Assembly: GCA_001805205.1 (NCBI GenBank) | Contig: MHER01000068.1 | Span: forward strand, 1 to 17,510 | Direction of reading: 5' to 3' | From: Nitrospirae bacterium RIFCSPLOW2_12_42_9 | Lineage (GTDB): Bacteria > Nitrospirota > 9FT-COMBO-42-15 > HDB-SIOI813 | Length of the DNA stretch: 17,510 nucleotides | Part shown: piece by piece, positions 955-11,425 of the stretch | Layout: every line of letters begins with the position of its first letter | How positions within the stretch are numbered: the first letter of the stretch is position 1 | Program-made: the position numbers and the translations under genes | The notes under the pieces: generated by a model | The model's input: only the letters and a program-made list of their open reading frames with translations | What the model was told of the DNA's origin: nothing | The model's database searches: none

Positions 955-2559
955 TTGATTAATTTAACCAAGACCGAAAAAATGCTTGTCGAAGCAAAAG
1001 GAAAAATCGCCAATCCGAGCAACCTTCCTTTTCTACAGGCCCAAATCTTGCAAAAAATCTACTTTGACTTATTTGAACAAAAACAAACAACCATTGAAAA
1101 TTTATCTGAATTAACCGATTATCCAAAAGATAGTAAAATTCTTGGTGACGCCATTGAAGCACTTATTGAAAAAGGATTTTTAGATGGACACTTGTTAGGT
1201 GGCTTCAAAGTTCCAGAGCATTGCTTGGACCTATTTTCTAAAATAGTGAAAAGGAATGACTACAAGCATAAAACATATTCAACAAATATTCTTCAGTTTA
1301 CTACGCCAGATAACATCTTCCCACGCCTTTTTGAAGAAGAACAAACCATTAGTGAACTTAATAAATATGGCGTTGTTCACAGATGGTATGATTATTTAGA
1401 AGATTTTCCCTACTCTCTTATTGAAGACAGAATAAAAGAATACAACATTAAGGCAAATTCATTGGTTGTTGAACCATTTGCAGGGAGTGGTACAACTTGC
1501 GTTGCATCCAATTTTTTTAAATGTAATTCCATTGGTTTTGACGCAAATCCACTGATGACATTTATTTCAGAAGTCAAAACAACTTGGGATATTGATTTAG
1601 TCATTTACAAAAAACAAGCTATTAAAGTTGCCCGTCAGTTTTTAGAAAAAATTCACGTCTATGATTCTCTTTCACTAAAGAAAGGTTTTTTGGAGCATAT
1701 GCCCAAAAAGGAGCTTAATCAATGGTTAAGTCCCTCTCTGCAAAAAGAAGTAAACCTCTTGAAAAATTTAATTGACGAAGTTACTGATAACAAGATAAAA
1801 AATCTTTTATTGCTTGCTTTATCCAAATCCTGCTTGGATGCCTCTTATGTTTCATTTTGTCCTGGGACAACCTTTTATCCGTTTAGAGAGAAAGAGGAAT
1901 TTTGGGATTTGTTTACAAAAAAGGCGATTCAGATATATGAAGATTTAGAGAAAGTTCAAAAGCACAACCACTATGGAAAATCCACCTTGATAAATGATAC
2001 CTGTCTGAATGCCCAAAAATACATTAAGCCCAAATCTATTGATTTCATTGTTACCTCACCACCCTATCCTAATGATTTGGAATACACCAGACAAACACGG
2101 CTTGAAATGTATTTACTGGACTTTGTAAAAAGCATGGATGAAGTCCAGCAAGTAAAGAAAAAGATGGTTAAGGGGAGCACAAAATTAATTTTCAAAGAAA
2201 GCAACTCAGAATCTTTTGCCTTAAAATTTAACGATGTTAAGATTGTTTCAGATAAAATTTACGAGCAGACCAAAGACAAAAATTGGGGTTTTGATTATCC
2301 GAGAATGGTAAGAGAATATTTTGGCGATATGTATTTATGCTTGAAAGAAATTCATCCTTTGATGAAGAAAAATTCTCATTTTCTTCTGGTAGTCGGTGAC
2401 CAAACAGTGAAAGGTGTTTATATTCCAGTTTGCGACATACTAATTAAAATGGCCCAAGAAATTGGCTACCAAAAATGCCGAAAAGAATTGTTCAGAATGA
2501 GAAGAAGCACGGGACATAATGTTTTATTACCAGAAGAGATTGTAATTATTGAAAAATGA
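955..2559 (+). CDS. Site-specific DNA methyltransferase (N4-cytosine/N6-adenine type), R-M system 1
   Basis: The protein has 534 residues. SAM-binding motif I reads EPFAGSGTT (residues 173-181) and catalytic motif IV reads TSPPYP (367-372). The SPPY form is typical of amino-methyltransferases, often N4-cytosine. Motif I precedes motif IV with about 185 residues between, room for an inserted recognition region. Residues about 25-90 resemble a winged-helix fold (helix-rich, ending IEALIEKGFLDG), which is unusual for a methyltransferase and could mean autoregulation; this is inference. The TTG start at 955 is preceded by AAGGTG at 939-944. The stop overlaps the downstream endonuclease start (ATGA), so the two are translationally coupled and form a type II R-M pair. 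The gene is clearly more A+T rich than the rho/murA block, consistent with recent transfer. It should protect the host against the partner nuclease. Confidence 0.85.
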   Translation: MINLTKTEKMLVEAKGKIANPSNLPFLQAQILQKIYFDLFEQKQTTIENLSELTDYPKDSKILGDAIEALIEKGFLDGHLLGGFKVPEHCLDLFSKIVKRNDYKHKTYSTNILQFTTPDNIFPRLFEEEQTISELNKYGVVHRWYDYLEDFPYSLIEDRIKEYNIKANSLVVEPFAGSGTTCVASNFFKCNSIGFDANPLMTFISEVKTTWDIDLVIYKKQAIKVARQFLEKIHVYDSLSLKKGFLEHMPKKELNQWLSPSLQKEVNLLKNLIDEVTDNKIKNLLLLALSKSCLDASYVSFCPGTTFYPFREKEEFWDLFTKKAIQIYEDLEKVQKHNHYGKSTLINDTCLNAQKYIKPKSIDFIVTSPPYPNDLEYTRQTRLEMYLLDFVKSMDEVQQVKKKMVKGSTKLIFKESNSESFALKFNDVKIVSDKIYEQTKDKNWGFDYPRMVREYFGDMYLCLKEIHPLMKKNSHFLLVVGDQTVKGVYIPVCDILIKMAQEIGYQKCRKELFRMRRSTGHNVLLPEEIVIIEK

Positions 2560-3371
2560 ATCCCAACGAAATATTTTCTTATCCTATTGAGGATAAATCA
2601 GAGGAAGCAAGAAAAGCAGTAAGGGAATACTATTGCAGATTTTTAGAAGGCAAATGTGATAAGCAAAGTAGAACAATCAATTATCCAATGGGTGTTTGTT
2701 CTGTCAATCACAGTAGAACAAAACCAATCATTTGTCCCCACCGTTTCTTAGAAAACAATTTGGTCTTTAAAAATGCTTGCGATTCTGTTTTTGGAACCAT
2801 AAATAATGTTTTGCTGTTTTCTGAGGTAAAACTTTCAAATGTCGGTAGTTTCGATTTTGTGCTGGTAAAACACAAGCCGATTAGTAATAAAGTAGAGGAT
2901 TTTTGCATTGTTGAATTTCAGTCCGACTCTACCACAGGGACAGGCAATTTAGTTAAAGCACTAAAAGATTTCATGAGTGGTATTGATGTTTTGCAAAATA
3001 GATACCAATTTGGAATGAACACATATAACACCATTAAGTTATCGTATATTCAAATGCTTATAAAAGGGCAAGTAATGGAGAAGTGGGGGAAAAATATTTT
3101 TTGGGTAATGCAAAAATATGTTTTTGACAATATGGTTAATCGTTTCGGTTTAAATGATTTAGATTACAACCCAAGGCATAAAACACAATACCATATTTAC
3201 AATCTGGTTGCAGACAGTAACATTTACAAACTTAAATTGGCTGATAAAAAATCAACGACTATCGCAAATTTATTGAAAGCATTTACTCACCAATCTATAC
3301 CAAGTTTGGATACATTTGTGGAAGTTTTGGAGCGTAAAATAAAATTGAAGTTAGGATTAATAATAGAATAA
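2556..3371 (+). CDS. NotI-family type II restriction endonuclease, R-M system 1
   Basis: The 271-residue protein starts at an ATG overlapping the methyltransferase stop by 4 bp. Features shared with NotI and its relatives are GVCSVN followed by IICPHRFLENNLVF (residues 46-71). A set of cysteines (C27, C34, C48, C60) could form a metal-binding knot like the iron-binding Cys4 site of NotI. There is also a PD-(D/E)xK core written as FDFVLV (D100) and VEFQ (E120, Q122), the E-x-Q variant seen in NotI. It is shorter than NotI (383 residues), as many environmental family members are. Function: cleavage of unmodified DNA at a site that cannot be deduced from sequence. The frame is complete with no internal stop. 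An attC-like site lies 60 bp downstream, so the pair has the layout of an integron cassette. Confidence 0.72.
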   Translation: MNPNEIFSYPIEDKSEEARKAVREYYCRFLEGKCDKQSRTINYPMGVCSVNHSRTKPIICPHRFLENNLVFKNACDSVFGTINNVLLFSEVKLSNVGSFDFVLVKHKPISNKVEDFCIVEFQSDSTTGTGNLVKALKDFMSGIDVLQNRYQFGMNTYNTIKLSYIQMLIKGQVMEKWGKNIFWVMQKYVFDNMVNRFGLNDLDYNPRHKTQYHIYNLVADSNIYKLKLADKKSTTIANLLKAFTHQSIPSLDTFVEVLERKIKLKLGLIIE

Positions 3372-4895: not shown

Positions 4896-4970
4896 ACCTA
4901 ACAGCAGGTTGCAGCTGACGTTGCTCCGCTGCGTTCCGCACCGAGGCTGAACCCAAAATCCCGATTAGGT
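4896..4970 (+). other. attC-like integron recombination site 2 (degenerate right end)
   Basis: The left end is a perfect inverse core ACCTAAC (4896-4902, RYYYAAC). It is followed by GTTGCAGC (4908-4915), a common L'' box of environmental attC sites. The mirror box GCTGAAC lies at 4946-4952 and pairs with it except for an extra G in the left arm, the usual extrahelical base. The right core would be ATTAGGT (4964-4970), one base from GTTRRRY. The L'-to-core spacing (11 nt) is longer than the 5 nt on the left, so the right end has decayed or was formed at a secondary site. It lies 10 bp after the endonuclease remnant, in the orientation expected of a cassette, and overlaps the stop codon of the convergent reductase gene. 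Confidence 0.6.
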
Positions 4971-6263
4971 CCCGAATCTCTTATCTATCCGGACGCCAAG
5001 TTTGTTCAGGAATTCGTTTGGTAATTCTCCCCCGGCAAATATGTAGGCATAGTGATTTGGAATTTCAATAATATTCTCAGTGGTTGCAATCTTGATATAT
5101 TTTTCTCCAATCTCTTTGACATTTGATTTGAATATGGCATTTAATGCTTTTTTACTGACTTTTTCATCAAGCCGTTCTTTGTTGGCAGGCTTGATACGGC
5201 TGAATGCCTCACCCCTGTATGACAGGGCCACCCTGTTTTTTGGCTGATCTGAAAGGGCTATTGCTGCTTCAACAGCACTATCACCTCCGCCTACCACAAG
5301 GATATCCTGGTTTTGATGCTGCTCAGGCTCTAATAGCCTGTAAGAGACTTTAGGAAGGTTTTCTCCCGGCACCCCGAGTTTTCTCGGTGTACCGCGGCGG
5401 CCAATGGCCAGGACAATATTCTTTGTAAGATAATCACCTTTAGAAGTAAATACCTTAAAACATCCATCATCCATTTTTATATCCAGCAACTTTTCTTTTG
5501 TCTGTATCTTTAATCCGGTCTTGTTTATTACCTGCATCCATAAGTCGAGGAGCCCCTCTTTTGTAGTCTCCTTTAATCTTACCTTTCCGTACATTGGTAA
5601 TTCCATTGGAGATGTCATTACTATCTTGTGCCTGGGATATTGAAGGACAGTCCCTCCTATATCATCCTGTTCAACTGTCACAAAATTCATTTTATATTTA
5701 ACTGCAGCAAGCGATGCCGATATACCTGCTGGTCCAGCACCTACTATCAGGACATCGCAAATATTGGTATTTTGTGCATCTGAATGACGGATGGAGCAGT
5801 TTATATACTCAATAACTTCACGTCCCTGTGTTACGGCATTTTTTATAAGACCCATACCACCCAATTCCCCAACGATATATATTCCCTTAATATTGGTCTC
5901 GAAGTTCGGCGTGAGGGAAGGGATATCAACACCTCTCGTTTCTGTACCAAAAACTAATTTTATTGCTCCTACAGGACATGCAATGGCACAGGCCCCATGG
6001 CCTATACATCTTGATGCATTAATCAGACTTGCCTTTCCATTTACAAGACCAATAATATCATGCTCGGGACATGACTTTACACAGGCCCCGCTTCCGATGC
6101 ATGTTGACGGATCAACAAATGGATGGATATGAACAGGTTCATGAAGTCCATATTCCTTGGCCTTATTTATCTTCTGGATATTCCTGCGGCTCTTTTTTTT
6201 CTGAAGTACATTATAAATGCCAACAACTGTTGCTATGATTACGATTGAGATGAATATTGTCAT
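4965..6263 (-). CDS. Membrane-anchored Fe-S / FAD / NAD(P) oxidoreductase
   Basis: The protein has 432 residues. A hydrophobic anchor spans residues 2-20, followed by a basic stretch (KKKSRR) that places the rest in the cytoplasm. A two-cluster ferredoxin domain reads CIGSGACVKSCP (C55, C61, C65) and CIGHGACAIACP (C86, C92, C96). In both, the usual second cysteine is replaced (S58 and H89). A thioredoxin-reductase-like flavoprotein follows, with an FAD fingerprint GAGPAG (175-180) and an NAD(P) fingerprint GGGDSA (325-330). A block GELGGMGLIKNAVTQG (132-147) links the domains. No CxxC dithiol of true thioredoxin reductase is present. Likely role: move electrons between NAD(P)H and the membrane cytochrome b of the same operon; direction unknown. 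It is the last gene of the minus-strand unit, 24 bp after the beta-barrel gene. Its stop TAA (4967-4965) lies within attC-like site 2. Confidence 0.8.
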   Translation of the reverse strand: MTIFISIVIIATVVGIYNVLQKKKSRRNIQKINKAKEYGLHEPVHIHPFVDPSTCIGSGACVKSCPEHDIIGLVNGKASLINASRCIGHGACAIACPVGAIKLVFGTETRGVDIPSLTPNFETNIKGIYIVGELGGMGLIKNAVTQGREVIEYINCSIRHSDAQNTNICDVLIVGAGPAGISASLAAVKYKMNFVTVEQDDIGGTVLQYPRHKIVMTSPMELPMYGKVRLKETTKEGLLDLWMQVINKTGLKIQTKEKLLDIKMDDGCFKVFTSKGDYLTKNIVLAIGRRGTPRKLGVPGENLPKVSYRLLEPEQHQNQDILVVGGGDSAVEAAIALSDQPKNRVALSYRGEAFSRIKPANKERLDEKVSKKALNAIFKSNVKEIGEKYIKIATTENIIEIPNHYAYIFAGGELPNEFLNKLGVRIDKRFGT

Positions 6264-6287: not shown

Positions 6288-7535
6288 TTAAAACCTGTAA
6301 GATATCCTGGTAAAAATTGAACTTGTGTCATATTCCTCTGCGTGTCTCCCCTCTATCGATAGCGAGAAATTCCACCACCTGTTCATAGTATAATATCCTG
6401 ATATATCATAACCTGTGATTTTATCAGTGTAGCCGGTGAGTTCATAATTATTTTCCATATAAGAACCATTTACATTCAGTTGGAAGACCTCATTAAAGAT
6501 CCGGCTCATCTGTAAGTTGTATGTTATGTAATTTGAACTATAGCTATCTACAAAGGTGGTGTTTATATCAAGACTAATTTTTTGATTCAATAGATTGTTT
6601 TCTCTAATACCTATCTGATAAGTATCGGAGTCTCTTAATTCTTCCTCAATGAGCTTATAGTATAGAGTCTGAAGTTCATATCTCCCGTATATTGAATATC
6701 TGTCAAGGAATTGATAATCTCCCCTTACATAGTATTGTTGCTGTTGACTCTTTTCTATCTCAAAGTCCATAGAGCTGTATAGTTGAAATGACCTGAACTG
6801 GTTATATCCAAAACTTACTCCCTTTCTGTTATCAGGTCTGTACGAAAGGTCTATCATCAAATTAGTAAGGTCTAAATTATCAGTTGATTGATTAATGTCC
6901 GCGGTAATTGAGCCATAAACATTTATCTTTTCTGAAGGAGAATATGTTAATTGAGTATACATATATTGTCTGTCTGTATCGCCTTTATATTCATTTTGTG
7001 TGATGGCAAGATTGGCAGAGAGGTTTACTTTATGATAATAGATATAACCGCCCATCGAAGTAAAGTTTGAGTTAAATTCTTCAGTGTATGGATCAGGTTT
7101 TGCGCCGCCGAATATACCAACACCAGAGTTGTTTTGATTTAATAATATATTTATTCCATCAACCCTTTCTGTGGGTAACTCTTTTGGCCACAGGCGTCCA
7201 GCACTTAAATTAAATCTACCTTTTCCTGAATATTCAATGTTCATAGTATCAATACGCGTATTTTTTGTCCTGCTGCTGTAATCCTGTGAGGTGAAATTAT
7301 TTTTTTCCCTGCCGTCAAAATGGAAAGAAAGACCTTCTATCTCTTTTAATTTATTCACATCCATACGCATACGTGTGGTTAATATGTTGAAATCATAGGC
7401 AGAACTGGAATCATTGGAGTAGTAGTCATCCATATATATATAACCACGGTATTCAGCCCCGTAGAGATTGGCTGATGATACAAGGAAAATTAATATAAAA
7501 CAAATGATGCAAATCTCAAAAGATGTCCTGGTCAT
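6288..7535 (-). CDS. Outer-membrane beta-barrel protein of the multiheme operon
   Basis: The 415-residue protein has an N-terminal hydrophobic signal (about residues 8-26, ending NLYGAEY with probable cleavage near YGA). The mature part is made of alternating, aromatic- and polar-rich segments such as VNLSANLAITQNEY, VYGSITADIN and RYSIYGRYEL. It ends in IFTRISYRF, a terminal phenylalanine signature recognised by the outer-membrane assembly machinery. It has no heme motif. It begins 3 bp after the 40-heme cytochrome stop and is probably translationally coupled. By analogy with porin-cytochrome conduits (for example MtrB with MtrA), it may be the sheath that lets the cytochrome pass electrons across the outer membrane. 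The sequence itself shows only a barrel, so a specific porin family is not claimed. GRLWPKELPTERVDG (about 118-132) resembles porin-like metal-reduction barrels, weakly. Confidence 0.72.
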   Translation of the reverse strand: MTRTSFEICIICFILIFLVSSANLYGAEYRGYIYMDDYYSNDSSSAYDFNILTTRMRMDVNKLKEIEGLSFHFDGREKNNFTSQDYSSRTKNTRIDTMNIEYSGKGRFNLSAGRLWPKELPTERVDGINILLNQNNSGVGIFGGAKPDPYTEEFNSNFTSMGGYIYYHKVNLSANLAITQNEYKGDTDRQYMYTQLTYSPSEKINVYGSITADINQSTDNLDLTNLMIDLSYRPDNRKGVSFGYNQFRSFQLYSSMDFEIEKSQQQQYYVRGDYQFLDRYSIYGRYELQTLYYKLIEEELRDSDTYQIGIRENNLLNQKISLDINTTFVDSYSSNYITYNLQMSRIFNEVFQLNVNGSYMENNYELTGYTDKITGYDISGYYTMNRWWNFSLSIEGRHAEEYDTSSIFTRISYRF

Positions 7536-7538
7536 CTA

Positions 7539-10322
7539 TTATTCTTTGCCTGTGGGATGACAGTTGAGACACTGTGAATTCGTGTATCCTTTTTTATGTT
7601 TATCCCCATGGCAGCTTGTACAACCTCCTTTATTCCCATAATTCTGATTGGAATGACAATCTGAACACTTTGAAGCCCCTTTGTGATTAGTGGGGAATGC
7701 TGTGAATGTATGGCTGAAAGTCGCTGTTGACCAGGAAGGGTATTTATGACAATTCTCACAGGTTGTTGAGAAACGCGTACTGTATGTATTATGAGCTGTG
7801 GGATATTTACTCAGATGGCAATTAGAGCAACCAGAGGTTAGTGTTGTATGACTGAACGTCCATGTTGGATATTTATGGCAGTTTTCACATGTCGTAGTAT
7901 ATTTGGTTGTGTCACTCGTATGACTTGACGGCCTGTCACTGAGATGACAGTCAGAGCATCCTGTTGATATAGTTGAATGATCTATTGTCCATATTGCAGT
8001 GGATTTATGGCAGTTTTCGCAGGTATTCGGGTATTTCTGTGGATTATTCACATGAGAGGCTGGTTTGTCATTAACATGGCAACTTGAGCACCCTGTTGTT
8101 ACTGAAGGATGGGAAACTGGTATCCATGCAGAGGTAGTCTTATGACAGTCTTCGCAAGTCATTGAATATTTCAGTGTATCATTTGTATGAGAGGCCGGCC
8201 TGTCGTTCAGATGACAACTCGAACACCCCGTGGTTACAGTGCCATGACTGAACGTCCAGGCTGTGGTTGACTTATGGCAATTTTCACATGTGGTAGAATA
8301 TTTCTGCGTATCATTAATATGAGAAGCTGGTCTGCTACTAAGGTGGCAGTTTGAACACCCTGTTTTCTCTTTATGTGCAAATGCCCAGGAGCCGGTGTTT
8401 GAAGGATGACATTTAACACAGTTCTGACTATATCCCCCTGATACATGGTTAGGTGCAGAATTATACTTATTCAGATGGCATCCTATACATGCTGATTTCG
8501 TATTCCTGTAAGTCCTGTTTTTATGACAGTCCTGACATTCTGCCCGGCGGTGTTGTCCAACGAGTGGATAACCTGTCTTACTGTGGTCAAACTGAGTAGG
8601 GCTCCAGGTTCTTTCATTATGGCACTGTGAACAGTTAATAGCCCCGAACTGGTTGAAATGCGGGTCAACATGACACTGGTTACAATAGCGGTTAGCTCCT
8701 TTATATTCATCCTTTGTTTTATGACAACTTGAACAGAGTATATCATTGTGTACACCCCTTAATTCATATCCTGTCTTATTCTTATGGTCAAATTTTCTGG
8801 GGAACCAGTCGGTCTGGGTATGACATGAACTGCATTCTTCCTTGAACTGGCCTTTATGAATATCCTTGTGACAATCTATGCACTTCTCTGCTTTAGTCTT
8901 ATACCTATTTTTCTCATGGCACTTATCACACCTGGTATCCTTGTGCTTTCCTATTAACGGGAATTTTGTCTGTTTATTATGGTCAAGTGTATACTTTTCC
9001 CACTCTGATGTGTTATGGCACTTTTCACAGTTCTTTCCAAGCTCCTTTTTGTGGGTATCATCTTTCTCATGACAATCAAAGCAATTTGACGAAACAGGTT
9101 TATATTTACCGGATATGTGACATTTAGCACAATCTACCCTTAAATGCTTTCCATCAAGTTTATATCCCTTATACTCTGCTGCATTGTGTTCAAAGAGGGA
9201 AGGGCTCCACCCCTTTACTGTATGACATTTCTCACAGGTCTGATCTTTGAACTGGCCTTTATGAATATCATTATGGCAATCAGAGGTATTACAACTTTTA
9301 GTGTTCAATGGTTTATAACGCCCCTTGACATGGCATTTATCGCATGCGACCTTTGAATGTTTTCCTTCTAACTTGTATCCCGGGTATTTTGGCGAGTCAT
9401 GATCAAAGAGTGATGGCTTCCACTCCTTTGTTGTATGGCATATCTCACAGGTCTTGTCTGTGAACTGTTTCTTATGCGGGTCATCATGGCAGGCCGAGTT
9501 GTTGCAGGTTTTATAGGGGATACCCTTGAGCTGACCCTTCTGATGGCACTTATCACAACTTACATCTGTGTGCTTACCAGTGAGCGGATACTTTGTTTTA
9601 TCATGATCGATCTTTACCTTTTTCCAACTATCAGTGGTATGGCACTCTTTACATTTAGGTTTATCCTTATGCGGATCTTTATGACAGGTGAGGCATTCCT
9701 CAAACTTTTGAATCTTATACCTGTTTTTTACATGACATTCACTGCACTTTACTTCAACGTGTTTACCTGTTAATGTATATTTTGAGTCTCTGTCATGATT
9801 AAACTTTTCAATACTCTCCCAACCTTTAATATTATGACAACGAATACAATCCTTCCCCAATTCATTTTTGTGCGGGTCTTTATGACAGGATGTACAATCC
9901 TGAGATAATCCTGTGTAAATACCACTCTTCTTATGGCATTTATTGCAGTCTACAACCGAGTGTTTATCTTCAAGCGGGTATCCGGAATCATCATGATCAA
10001 ATTCCTTTTCATCTAATTCAGTGATCTTAAAACCTCTCCCCTTATGATCAGTGTGGCATTTTATGCAGGGGTCAGTGAATTTGGCATGAACGCCTTCTTT
10101 TTTAACTATTCTTGCTGCGAGTTTGTCGTGACAATCAAGGCATTTGCTGTCAGGAATACCGCCCCCAAGGGCATGGCATTGTGTACAGTTCCTTAATCCC
10201 TCATAATCAGCATGAGGGGATGTCAGTTTCCCCGGGCTTATAAGGGAACCTATCCCCTCCTGTGCATGAGCATTTGAATATGGGAATAGAAGTATCAGTA
10301 TAAAAAATATTCTAATAATCAT
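7539..10322 (-). CDS. Secreted 40-heme c-type cytochrome
   Basis: The protein has 927 residues. The signal peptide MIIRIFFILILLFPYSNAHA is probably cleaved after residue 20. I count 38 CXXCH motifs plus two CX4CH motifs (CNNSACH 273-279 and CNTSDCH 344-350), giving 40 probable covalent heme sites. Residues about 46-620 contain repeats of the type FDHD..YPLxGKHxxVxCxxCHxKxRYK, in which extra histidines can act as sixth ligands. Residues about 656-860 contain a different tandem repeat of about 44 residues with two hemes each. There is no second membrane segment, so the mature protein is periplasmic or outer-membrane associated. Maturation needs a cytochrome c maturation system encoded elsewhere. 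Role: a long heme wire between the cytochrome b upstream and the beta-barrel downstream in the operon. Lysine-rich composition suggests a basic protein. Whether it serves extracellular electron export, metal reduction or electron uptake cannot be read from sequence. Confidence 0.93.
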   Translation of the reverse strand: MIIRIFFILILLFPYSNAHAQEGIGSLISPGKLTSPHADYEGLRNCTQCHALGGGIPDSKCLDCHDKLAARIVKKEGVHAKFTDPCIKCHTDHKGRGFKITELDEKEFDHDDSGYPLEDKHSVVDCNKCHKKSGIYTGLSQDCTSCHKDPHKNELGKDCIRCHNIKGWESIEKFNHDRDSKYTLTGKHVEVKCSECHVKNRYKIQKFEECLTCHKDPHKDKPKCKECHTTDSWKKVKIDHDKTKYPLTGKHTDVSCDKCHQKGQLKGIPYKTCNNSACHDDPHKKQFTDKTCEICHTTKEWKPSLFDHDSPKYPGYKLEGKHSKVACDKCHVKGRYKPLNTKSCNTSDCHNDIHKGQFKDQTCEKCHTVKGWSPSLFEHNAAEYKGYKLDGKHLRVDCAKCHISGKYKPVSSNCFDCHEKDDTHKKELGKNCEKCHNTSEWEKYTLDHNKQTKFPLIGKHKDTRCDKCHEKNRYKTKAEKCIDCHKDIHKGQFKEECSSCHTQTDWFPRKFDHKNKTGYELRGVHNDILCSSCHKTKDEYKGANRYCNQCHVDPHFNQFGAINCSQCHNERTWSPTQFDHSKTGYPLVGQHRRAECQDCHKNRTYRNTKSACIGCHLNKYNSAPNHVSGGYSQNCVKCHPSNTGSWAFAHKEKTGCSNCHLSSRPASHINDTQKYSTTCENCHKSTTAWTFSHGTVTTGCSSCHLNDRPASHTNDTLKYSMTCEDCHKTTSAWIPVSHPSVTTGCSSCHVNDKPASHVNNPQKYPNTCENCHKSTAIWTIDHSTISTGCSDCHLSDRPSSHTSDTTKYTTTCENCHKYPTWTFSHTTLTSGCSNCHLSKYPTAHNTYSTRFSTTCENCHKYPSWSTATFSHTFTAFPTNHKGASKCSDCHSNQNYGNKGGCTSCHGDKHKKGYTNSQCLNCHPTGKE
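7745..8360 (-). repeat. Tandem ~44-residue diheme repeats in the cytochrome C-terminal domain
   Basis: Five units of 43-45 codons (about 130-135 bp) run through cytochrome residues about 656-860. Each holds a TTCENCHK(S/Y) motif (CENCH/CEDCH at residues 679, 723, 768, 812 and 855) and a TGCSSCHLNDRPASH-type motif. The regular period and near-identical residues point to internal duplication. Confidence 0.85.
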
Positions 10323-10333
10323 ATCTGTAAATA

Positions 10334-11236
10334 TTATGCATGAGTTGGTCTGAACAGGTAATAAACAAATATATGCAATATCATTATTAAAAACATCACA
10401 ATGGCCAATGGTATATGCACGATATGCCAGTAGTGGAGGAGCCTGTGTGATGTATTAAGCAGGTTTTTTCTTCTAATCAGGGCACCTTTCTTCTTTAGAA
10501 GAAAATCAATCTTCCTTCTCACATTCCATGGAAGACTATATTCCTTTTTTAGTATCTTGTTTACCTGATATATTTTAAAAGAGATTGCAATGTCTGTTTT
10601 AAACATATAGAAGAGGGCCTTAATTAAACCAATATCATTATTTGGTTTATATACTGAATCCAATATCTTGCTCAATCCTGTAATATTTACACTGCCTGAG
10701 TACTCACCCAGACGGCTATCTATAGTCTGGATAATACGCTCTATATCCTGTACCTTAAACTCAGCTCCAGCTATACTTCTCGGGATTTGTACATATATAT
10801 ACCTCCCTAATATCCCGAAGATCATTGTGGCTATCATAGACCAGTAACTTGTGGCTATAATCCCGCTGAATTTGAATGTGGTGTGAAATGTAACGAATAT
10901 AGGTCCCATTATTCCAAGAAACATATGCACTGTGAGCCAGCGTCTTAATGAACCAAGGGAACTGAAAACAGATATCCTCTTTCTAAGGCTGTAAAGCATC
11001 ATTATAATCATCATACCGGACCCAATCCACCCCATAGGATGCCAGATTCCCTTGCTCGGTTCATATATCACAGGATATTCTTTTAAATAACCATAGTTGT
11101 GGAGAAGGCTTAAGATGCTATAATCCGGGACATACTTCTGGGTATAGCTTTCATAACTGCCCAAAAGTAATGTAATAATGATTATTGATATGAGTATCCA
11201 GACAAAGACAGGTCTTTCTCTTTGGTCTCTTTTCAT
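10334..11236 (-). CDS. Inner-membrane b-type cytochrome of the multiheme operon
   Basis: The preferred start is the ATG at 11236 (300 residues), which follows the terminator T-run. An in-frame ATG at 11284 also exists but lies inside the conserved riboswitch aptamer, so it is unlikely to be used. About five hydrophobic segments are visible: residues 10-26, 65-83, 100-120, 130-149 and 268-294. Histidines sit where b-heme ligands would be expected: H66 (WHPMGW), H104 and H118 (TVHMF..TFHTT), and H264-H288 (HRLLHYWHIVHIP..ILHIF). A soluble loop covers about 155-255. The shape resembles cytochrome b561/iron-reductase-like quinone or ferredoxin oxidoreductase subunits; I do not assign a named family. 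As first gene of the operon, directly under riboswitch control and 11 bp before the 40-heme cytochrome, it likely passes electrons between the reductase or quinone pool and periplasmic hemes. Confidence 0.75.
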   Translation of the reverse strand: MKRDQRERPVFVWILISIIIITLLLGSYESYTQKYVPDYSILSLLHNYGYLKEYPVIYEPSKGIWHPMGWIGSGMMIIMMLYSLRKRISVFSSLGSLRRWLTVHMFLGIMGPIFVTFHTTFKFSGIIATSYWSMIATMIFGILGRYIYVQIPRSIAGAEFKVQDIERIIQTIDSRLGEYSGSVNITGLSKILDSVYKPNNDIGLIKALFYMFKTDIAISFKIYQVNKILKKEYSLPWNVRRKIDFLLKKKGALIRRKNLLNTSHRLLHYWHIVHIPLAIVMFLIMILHIFVYYLFRPTHA

Positions 11237-11273
11237 AAAAAAACCGCCAAGGGCAGTAAACACCTTTGGCGGT
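11237..11273 (-). terminator. Intrinsic terminator acting as riboswitch expression platform
   Basis: On the minus strand ACCGCCAAAGG (11273-11263) pairs with CCTTGGCGGT (11252-11243), with one bulged A, and is followed by a 7-T run (11243-11237). The start codon of the cytochrome b gene follows immediately. The GGCGG of the 3' arm (11248-11244) is also the only plausible ribosome binding site for ATG 11236, so the hairpin could block both transcription and translation. Its 5' arm contains CAAAGG, which is complementary to the aptamer's 5' P1 strand. Confidence 0.88.
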
Positions 11274-11375
11274 TCGGCTGACATAGGTATTTTGGGGGCA
11301 TAATAACTCCCCTAAATACCATTAGTCCCGTTACTCTGCGTCTCCGTCTTTCAACGGGTTTGCTCTGAGCAAAGG
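11263..11375 (-). promoter_or_regulatory. GEMM-I riboswitch aptamer (c-di-GMP-I family, A20 variant)
   Basis: The minus-strand RNA shows the GEMM-I hallmarks in order. CAGAGCAAACC (about 11367-11357) leads into a P2 stem capped by a GAAA tetraloop (11352-11349). GACGCAGAG and the tetraloop-receptor GGGACUAA follow. A long P3 stem pairs GGTATTT (11320-11314) with AAATACC (11292-11286), with an inner GGGG/CCCC extension. The 3' end is AUGUCAGCCGA. Aligned to the V. cholerae Vc2 aptamer, the base equivalent to G20 is A (11364), while A47 is kept. A20 is the variant linked to cyclic AMP-GMP recognition in Geobacter GEMM-Ib switches. P1 can form between CCTTTG (11375-11370) and CAAAGG (11268-11263). 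That pairing takes the terminator's 5' arm, so ligand binding should permit transcription of the cytochrome operon. Ligand and ON direction are inference; the aptamer fold is direct. Confidence 0.9.
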
Positions 11376-11396
11376 ATTTATTATATTCGGTTATTT

Positions 11397-11425
11397 ACTA
11401 TAGAAAAAAATATAATTCTTGTCAA
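11397..11425 (-). promoter_or_regulatory. Sigma-70 type promoter of the cytochrome operon
   Basis: On the minus strand a perfect -35 TTGACA (11425-11420) is followed after exactly 17 bp by TATAGT (11402-11397), five of six matches to the -10 consensus. Transcription would begin near 11390, about 15 nt before the riboswitch aptamer, which fits well. Confidence 0.75.

Follow-up and report, generated by a model that had tools for sequence, protein, structure and literature searches.

The window, by which we mean the whole stretch of 17,510 nt analysed here (positions 1 to 17,510 of contig MHER01000068.1 from Nitrospirae bacterium RIFCSPLOW2_12_42_9), almost certainly carries a GEMM-I ON switch ahead of an operon with a 40-haem cytochrome. 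We consider the explanation as a whole, a transcriptional ON switch of the GEMM-Ib type supplied with cAMP-GMP by the genome's own GacA-like enzyme, to be correct with a probability of roughly 75%. In the proposed mechanism RNA polymerase would transcribe the leader, and 3′,3′-cyclic AMP-GMP, which a GacA-like GAF-GGDEF protein with the Hypr serine would synthesise in the same cell, would bind the A20 aptamer and lock the P1 helix (CCUUUG/CAAAGG). With P1 locked the terminator would be unable to form and the four-gene operon would be transcribed; without ligand, the shared strand and the downstream arm would pair and transcription would stop just upstream of the start codon. Leader and operon lie on the reverse strand, and their coordinates below are window positions.

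Architecture of the leader

The covariance-model scan returned RF01051 (GEMM-I, c-di-GMP-I) as the sole Rfam match in the window at gathering scores, at 11265..11374 with 56.0 bits (E 8e-9) against a gathering score of 35. The initial annotation had proposed a GEMM-I aptamer with a GAAA loop on P2 and a P3 helix, and had named the Rfam model as a check; the scan supports the assignment, and the RF01051 alignment contains both the GAAA loop and P3. The hallmarks of the class were all found: the leader has P1, a GNRA loop on P2, P3, and an expression platform in competition with P1. A consensus scan located a sigma-70-like promoter, TTGACA-17-TATAGT, at 11397..11425, with TTGACA at 11425-11420, a spacer of 17 nt and TATAGT at 11402-11397. 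The promoter had been called consensus and is near-consensus (11 of 12 matches), and promoter-like sites as a class showed no enrichment (6 found versus 4.0 in shuffles). Transcription would start near 11390.

The 5′ strand of P1, CCUUUG (11370..11375), pairs with CAAAGG at 11268-11263. Counting both pairings on the sequence, we found that the strand ACCGCCAAAGG (11263..11273) comprises the 3′ end of the aptamer, the 3′ strand of P1 and the 5′ arm of the terminator. The remainder of the terminator occupies 11237..11253, with the 3′ arm at 11253-11243 and U's to 11237, so that the GC-rich hairpin ends in seven U's. P1 and the terminator are mutually exclusive, because the terminator takes the 3′ strand of P1 together with the preceding C; the earlier claim that aptamer folding and termination exclude each other thus holds through the strand common to both. 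Unconstrained folding gave the terminator form at −55.0 kcal/mol and folding with P1 enforced gave −43.5 kcal/mol, a cost of 11.5 kcal/mol in a calculation that leaves ligand and tertiary contacts outside.

Passages of PMC9262584 describe Geobacter pilM as an ON switch in which the ligand prevents a terminator that sequesters the ligand-pairing C, and by analogy with this pilM-like layout the direction of control in the window would be ON. The leader resembles the Geobacter GEMM-Ib riboswitches (pilM, pgcA, Gs1761) in its GEMM-I fold, the A at the selectivity base, the competition between P1 and terminator and the ON layout, and cytochrome genes are among the targets in both. Unlike those riboswitches, it lies in Nitrospirota, it precedes an operon of gene 1, a 40-haem cytochrome, a barrel and an FAD/Fe-S protein, and its terminator abuts the start codon.

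The selectivity base and the probable ligand

RF01051 position 11, at window position 11364, is an A immediately 5′ of the first P2 pair. We take RF01051 position 11, A14 of the cGAMP riboswitch and G20 of Vc2 to be one site, at which the A reported by the initial annotation was found again; Vc2 (GEMM-Ia, c-di-GMP-I) belongs to the same covariance family and has G20 where the window has A. This mapping of Vc2 G20 to 11364 is our own reading and is consistent with passages of PMC6274999, where J1/2 of the cGAMP riboswitch is A9-A14, P2 begins at C15 and A14 touches the ligand, and of PMC9262584, where the site equivalent to Vc2 G20 is a selectivity factor and no hard filter. In the part of PMC10333796 that bears on this point, G20 and other bases set the preference for c-di-GMP.

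Three GEMM-I aptamers were found in the genome to which the window belongs (G000; 2.05 Mb, 85% complete), two of the A20 type (in the window and on contig C17) and one of the G20 type on contig C55. That cAMP-GMP is the ligand of the window's aptamer is our best reading and a well-supported, quite probable prediction. The main rival is that the switch, likewise a GEMM-I ON switch, has c-di-GMP as its natural ligand, or responds to either dinucleotide, and merely tolerates the A20. The Desulfobacca A variant, in passages of the published account, had improved c-AMP-GMP binding with a perhaps slight loss of c-di-GMP binding, which favours this rival, and A20 by itself is no proof or guarantee of a cAMP-GMP ligand. 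The genome is also rich in ordinary GGDEF proteins, and c-di-GMP is probably present in the cell as well, because at least 13 of them are of the Asp type. Against this stands the separate G20 aptamer that the genome keeps, a hint that the cell distinguishes two signals, and the joint occurrence of A20 aptamers and the Hypr serine throughout the family, described below. We regard c-di-GMP as an unlikely natural ligand and cAMP-GMP as the preferred one.

A candidate cAMP-GMP synthase

The initial annotation had suggested a search of the genome for Hypr-type GGDEF or DncV-like synthases. The first part was positive: among 17 GGDEF matches in G000, 13 have Asp at the PleD D344 site, two are degenerate, one was unread and one, which groups with GacA, the proven cAMP-GMP synthase of Geobacter, has Ser with an intact GGDEF. 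The second part, a search for AGS_C (PF18134) that covers some of the CD-NTases, gave no match in G000. The Ser-type protein, a GAF-GGDEF protein at G000:C53:3373-4509, is a candidate cAMP-GMP synthase on the strength of its sequence.

According to passages of PMC6456294, Hypr enzymes have Ser (or Thr) at the site of PleD D344 and GacA S348 and a cross-dimer residue other than Arg, and these passages and those of PMC10333796 add Asp, not Glu, in the third place of GGDEF. The candidate has Ser at the S348 site, within GHLHGS, and keeps GGDEF with Asp in the third place. At the cross-dimer site, GacA Tyr304, Leu is found in all 10 aligned family members; most cyclases have Arg there, and Leu is absent from the tested cross-dimer residues named in the passages of PMC6456294 that we cite. 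The top PDB sequence match of the candidate was GacA, the Hypr GGDEF of G. metallireducens, at 154.9 bits, followed by the next at 113.1 bits. We built a tree from 70 selected GGDEF domains, 44 of them Ser-type, and 43 of the 44, among them GacA and the candidate, were placed together on the same side of a branch supported at 100/95. The Ser label needs three changes on this tree, versus a mean of 21 when shuffled; a single origin of the label, which would need one change, was rejected. In common with GacA (GSU1658 / Gmet_1914) the candidate thus has the serine of S348, the Asp of GGDEF, a non-Arg cross-dimer residue, a GAF domain and a place on the same side of one well-supported branch; it differs from GacA in that no receiver domain was found and in the Leu at the Y304 site. 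These features suggest that its product would be cAMP-GMP.

Several other GGDEF domains were observed in the course of this comparison. An Asp-type domain from Nitrospinota (L187, G298) is nested in the Ser-type group, as though it had gone back to making c-di-GMP. A Ser-type domain with GGEEF (L269, G161) lies outside the GacA group and should, by the published rule, be inactive as a cAMP-GMP synthase. Three cassette-bearing Deltaproteobacteria-type MAGs (G299, G301 and G300) each encode two Ser-type GGDEFs, one that falls with GacA (L197, L199 and L206, respectively) and one that is nested among those of Nitrospirota.

Co-occurrence of A20 aptamers and Ser-type enzymes

The Ser-type orthologue was found in all 10 genomes of the window's family, and each of these has at least one A20 aptamer. 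RF01051 gave 32 matches in the family (2 below the gathering score), and the 30 that were aligned comprised 20 of the A20 and 10 of the G20 type. Rho proteins share 94-95% identity within the family. As a marker of the phylum Rho identity was rejected, with values of 75-80% to 4 other phylum genomes and 76-80% to the matching Deltaproteobacteria-type MAGs.

We extended the comparison to a phylum sample of 295 genomes, in which RF01051 matches occurred in 131. A strict A20 pattern was present in 51 of the 295 genomes and its reversed control in none. A Hypr-type orthologue was scored, with a cut of 270 bits, in 102 of the 295, about a third of the genomes sampled; the specificity residue was read in 65 of these 102 and was Ser in every case, the remaining 37 being assigned by score. 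Scores of Ser-type proteins reached down to 272 bits and those of Asp paralogues up to 292 bits, an overlap that leaves the assignment of G038 and G234, both unread, uncertain. The phylum searches scored a small number of candidates in each genome, which makes absences weak. Over the 295 genomes, an A20 aptamer and a Ser-type enzyme occurred together in 38, an A20 aptamer only in 13, a Ser-type enzyme only in 64 and neither in 180. The corresponding numbers for the 131 genomes with GEMM-I were 38, 13, 37 and 43, and when the window's own family was removed they were 28, 13, 37 and 43 (p 0.03 in a Fisher test that ignores relatedness).

The 13 genomes with A20 and no scored orthologue count in favour of c-di-GMP as the ligand. 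Nine of them belong to one family, f6 (G005, G015, G024, G041, G048, G053, G058, G063 and G079), and the others are G034, G124, G232 and G251. We read 30 of their 196 GGDEF matches, the best per genome, and all were of the Asp type, with one line a regex artefact. These genomes may have another source of the messenger, another ligand or an enzyme that was missed. The A20 base as a clean marker of genomes with a Hypr enzyme was rejected, 38 of the 51 A20 genomes having a scored orthologue and 13 having none; it is an imperfect marker of the pathway because the 13 exceptions showed no Hypr enzyme in the loci read.

The four-gene operon and its relatives

The operon consists of four genes separated by 11, 3 and 24 nt. 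Gene 1 (10334..11236) encodes a membrane protein of 300 aa, possibly a b-type dihaem cytochrome. Its start was placed at 11236 because alignment A1 has its invariant initial Met there; the upstream ATG at 11284 was rejected, since it is inside the aptamer. The protein contains HX13H twice (His 104/118 and 274/288), a motif pair present in 18 of 18 alignment rows. This spacing is that of cytochrome b of the bc1 complex. The gene 1 family had no Pfam match, in a search made with the longer frame, and no NCBIfam match. The AlphaFold model of gene 1 (mean pLDDT 70.2, pTM 0.49) is uninformative as to fold because of these scores and because no PDB match was obtained at E <= 0.001.

Gene 2 (7539..10322) encodes a probably secreted multihaem c cytochrome of 927 aa. 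The initial annotation had spoken of a 40-heme cytochrome operon, and the motifs yield the same number, 38 CXXCH and 2 CX4CH giving 40 potential haem sites. Gene 3 (6288..7535) encodes a probable outer-membrane barrel of 415 aa, which matches Porin_4 below the Pfam cut-off and recurs in the cassette of relatives. Gene 4 (4965..6263) encodes an oxidoreductase of 432 aa with FAD/NAD(P) and two [4Fe-4S] sites, indicated by Pyr_redox_3 and Fer4 domains, and a hydrophobic N-terminus. As in porin-cytochrome conduits of extracellular electron transfer, the multihaem cytochrome adjoins a predicted outer-membrane barrel; unlike those conduits, the cassette also includes an FAD/Fe-S partner and the HX13H membrane protein, whose family has no name. 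The operon probably serves extracellular electron transfer.

We found 181 homologues of gene 1 at E <= 0.001. Many of the 41 gene 1 loci in named genomes have a cytochrome, a barrel or an oxidoreductase close by, and the cytochromes of relatives have up to 57 CXXCH motifs at the named loci and up to 68 in the window's family. Our own GEMM-I model, which recovers 30 of 30 family aptamers (5 of these being in its training set), detected a riboswitch at 3 of the 41 named loci. All three are A20 aptamers in Deltaproteobacteria MAGs, and all were first spotted by regex and are also in the training set of the model. Gene 1 is present in 6 of the 10 family genomes, and an A20 aptamer lies ahead of it in 3 of the 6; this fraction and the 3 of 41 named loci count against the proposed explanation. 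A20 leaders of one type thus precede gene 1 in the window, in 2 further family genomes and in the 3 Deltaproteobacteria MAGs. Other A20 leaders of the window's type precede probably secreted proteins in the family.

A second type of A20 GEMM-I was represented by 8 aptamers in 8 family genomes (L001, which is the copy on G000:C17, and L027, L048, L098, L099, L105, L106 and L109). At 7 of the 8, the frame listed downstream is that of a small membrane protein bearing an HEYGH motif; the window genome's own copy of this protein (G000:C17) had no Pfam match. The G20 aptamer of G000 (C55, L003) lies ahead of a gene for a large FG-GAP repeat protein that is probably secreted. In five GEMM-I variants (L030, L037, L045, L046 and L050) GGUAAAC and GGCACAAAG replace GGCAAAC and GACGCAAAG, with a matched change at the base of the P2 helix.

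Conservation of the leader helices and the level of control

We aligned 11 leaders of the same type, namely that of the window, 7 from the family and 3 from Deltaproteobacteria MAGs, and compared them with shuffles that leave the relatedness among leaders in place. Both P1 and the terminator can be formed in each of the 11 leaders. P1 and P2 together were paired in 95.5% of cells (74.2% in shuffles) with a covariation of 0.711 (0.263 in shuffles). Seven pairs of these helices changed on both sides, 6 in P2 and 1 in P1, so that the covariation of P1 is weak, a point against the proposed explanation. The terminator was paired in 95.0% of cells (91.1% in shuffles) with a covariation of 0.276 (0.185 in shuffles), and its 8 doubly changed cells were matched by none of 500 shuffles; the number of changed pairs (3 versus 2.0) and of pair types (7 versus 7.0) did not exceed the shuffles. 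When the partners were displaced by 1-3 columns, the pairing of P1+P2 and of the terminator fell to 32-61%.

The position of the hairpin bears on the level at which control is exerted. The ATG of gene 1 at 11236 follows directly on the U tract, and the only SD-like stretch that we discerned ahead of the start is GGCGG, located in the 3′ arm of the terminator 7 nt before the AUG, which may act as the SD. Control could then be mainly or also translational, the hairpin hiding GGCGG and the ligand freeing the ribosome site. However, seven U's after a GC-rich hairpin are the classic signature of an intrinsic terminator. In the other family leaders the probable start is situated farther along the transcript; in L104 an ATG also adjoins the U tract, and a start with a clear SD comes after it. 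We consider this explanation very improbable beside transcriptional control, and the two can act together. That the aptamer is a relic without function is hardly credible, since neither the core nor P1 nor the terminator is damaged, all three are conserved in relatives, and the promoter is near consensus.

Possible cAMP-GMP signalling beyond Geobacter

The family of the window bears the name 'Nitrospirae' at NCBI and is not Geobacter, which agrees with the suggestion of the initial annotation that the lineage may be one in which such signalling is undescribed. We take the phylum to be Nitrospirota from these names and from the grouping of the genomes used here. Nelson 2015 reportedly speaks of Deltaproteobacteria, and the Hypr enzyme Cabther_A1065 is presumably acidobacterial. 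We found no report of cAMP-GMP signalling in Nitrospirota among the titles and opening lines of abstracts listed, and an earlier mention in Kellenberger 2015, Nelson 2015 or Hallberg 2016 is possible. The passages of PMC6456294 (eLife 2019) that we cite place Hypr enzymes and cAMP-GMP in Geobacter, Myxobacteria and others, with Cabther_A1065 among the enzymes tested. The parts described here are of known kinds, and it appears that the lineage and the breadth are the new point.

In the family, A20 riboswitches lie ahead of the probable electron-transfer operon, of genes for proteins that are probably secreted and of the HEYGH gene. In groundwater Deltaproteobacteria with the cytochrome cassette, a Hypr-type enzyme falls within the Nitrospirota branches, and some of these bacteria have another one closer to GacA, so that the signal and the cassette may have been transferred between the lineages. 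A broader proposition, which we hold to be evenly balanced, is that cAMP-GMP signalling of the GacA/GEMM-Ib type is a broad Nitrospirota system and no speciality of Geobacter, with GacA as one branch of the Hypr group and with possible movement of signal and cassette. If the explanation is true, the cAMP-GMP pathway of Geobacter extends to a second phylum, where a single genome combines the sensor, the operon that it controls and a candidate synthase. It would provide RNAs open to testing and one candidate enzyme in bacteria represented here by MAGs alone, and would suggest that some Nitrospirota RNAs annotated as 'c-di-GMP-I' respond to a different messenger.

Other features of the window

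Three further loci were observed in the window. An N4/N6 methylase adjoins a NotI-type endonuclease at 955-3371. The segment 3872-4885 holds a methylase split over two short frames, beside a fragment of a BglII-type endonuclease, and looks decayed. The segment 2-523 encodes the C-terminal part of a CARF-HEPN protein (Csx1/Csm6-like), cut by the left end of the window, which is the first base of the contig.
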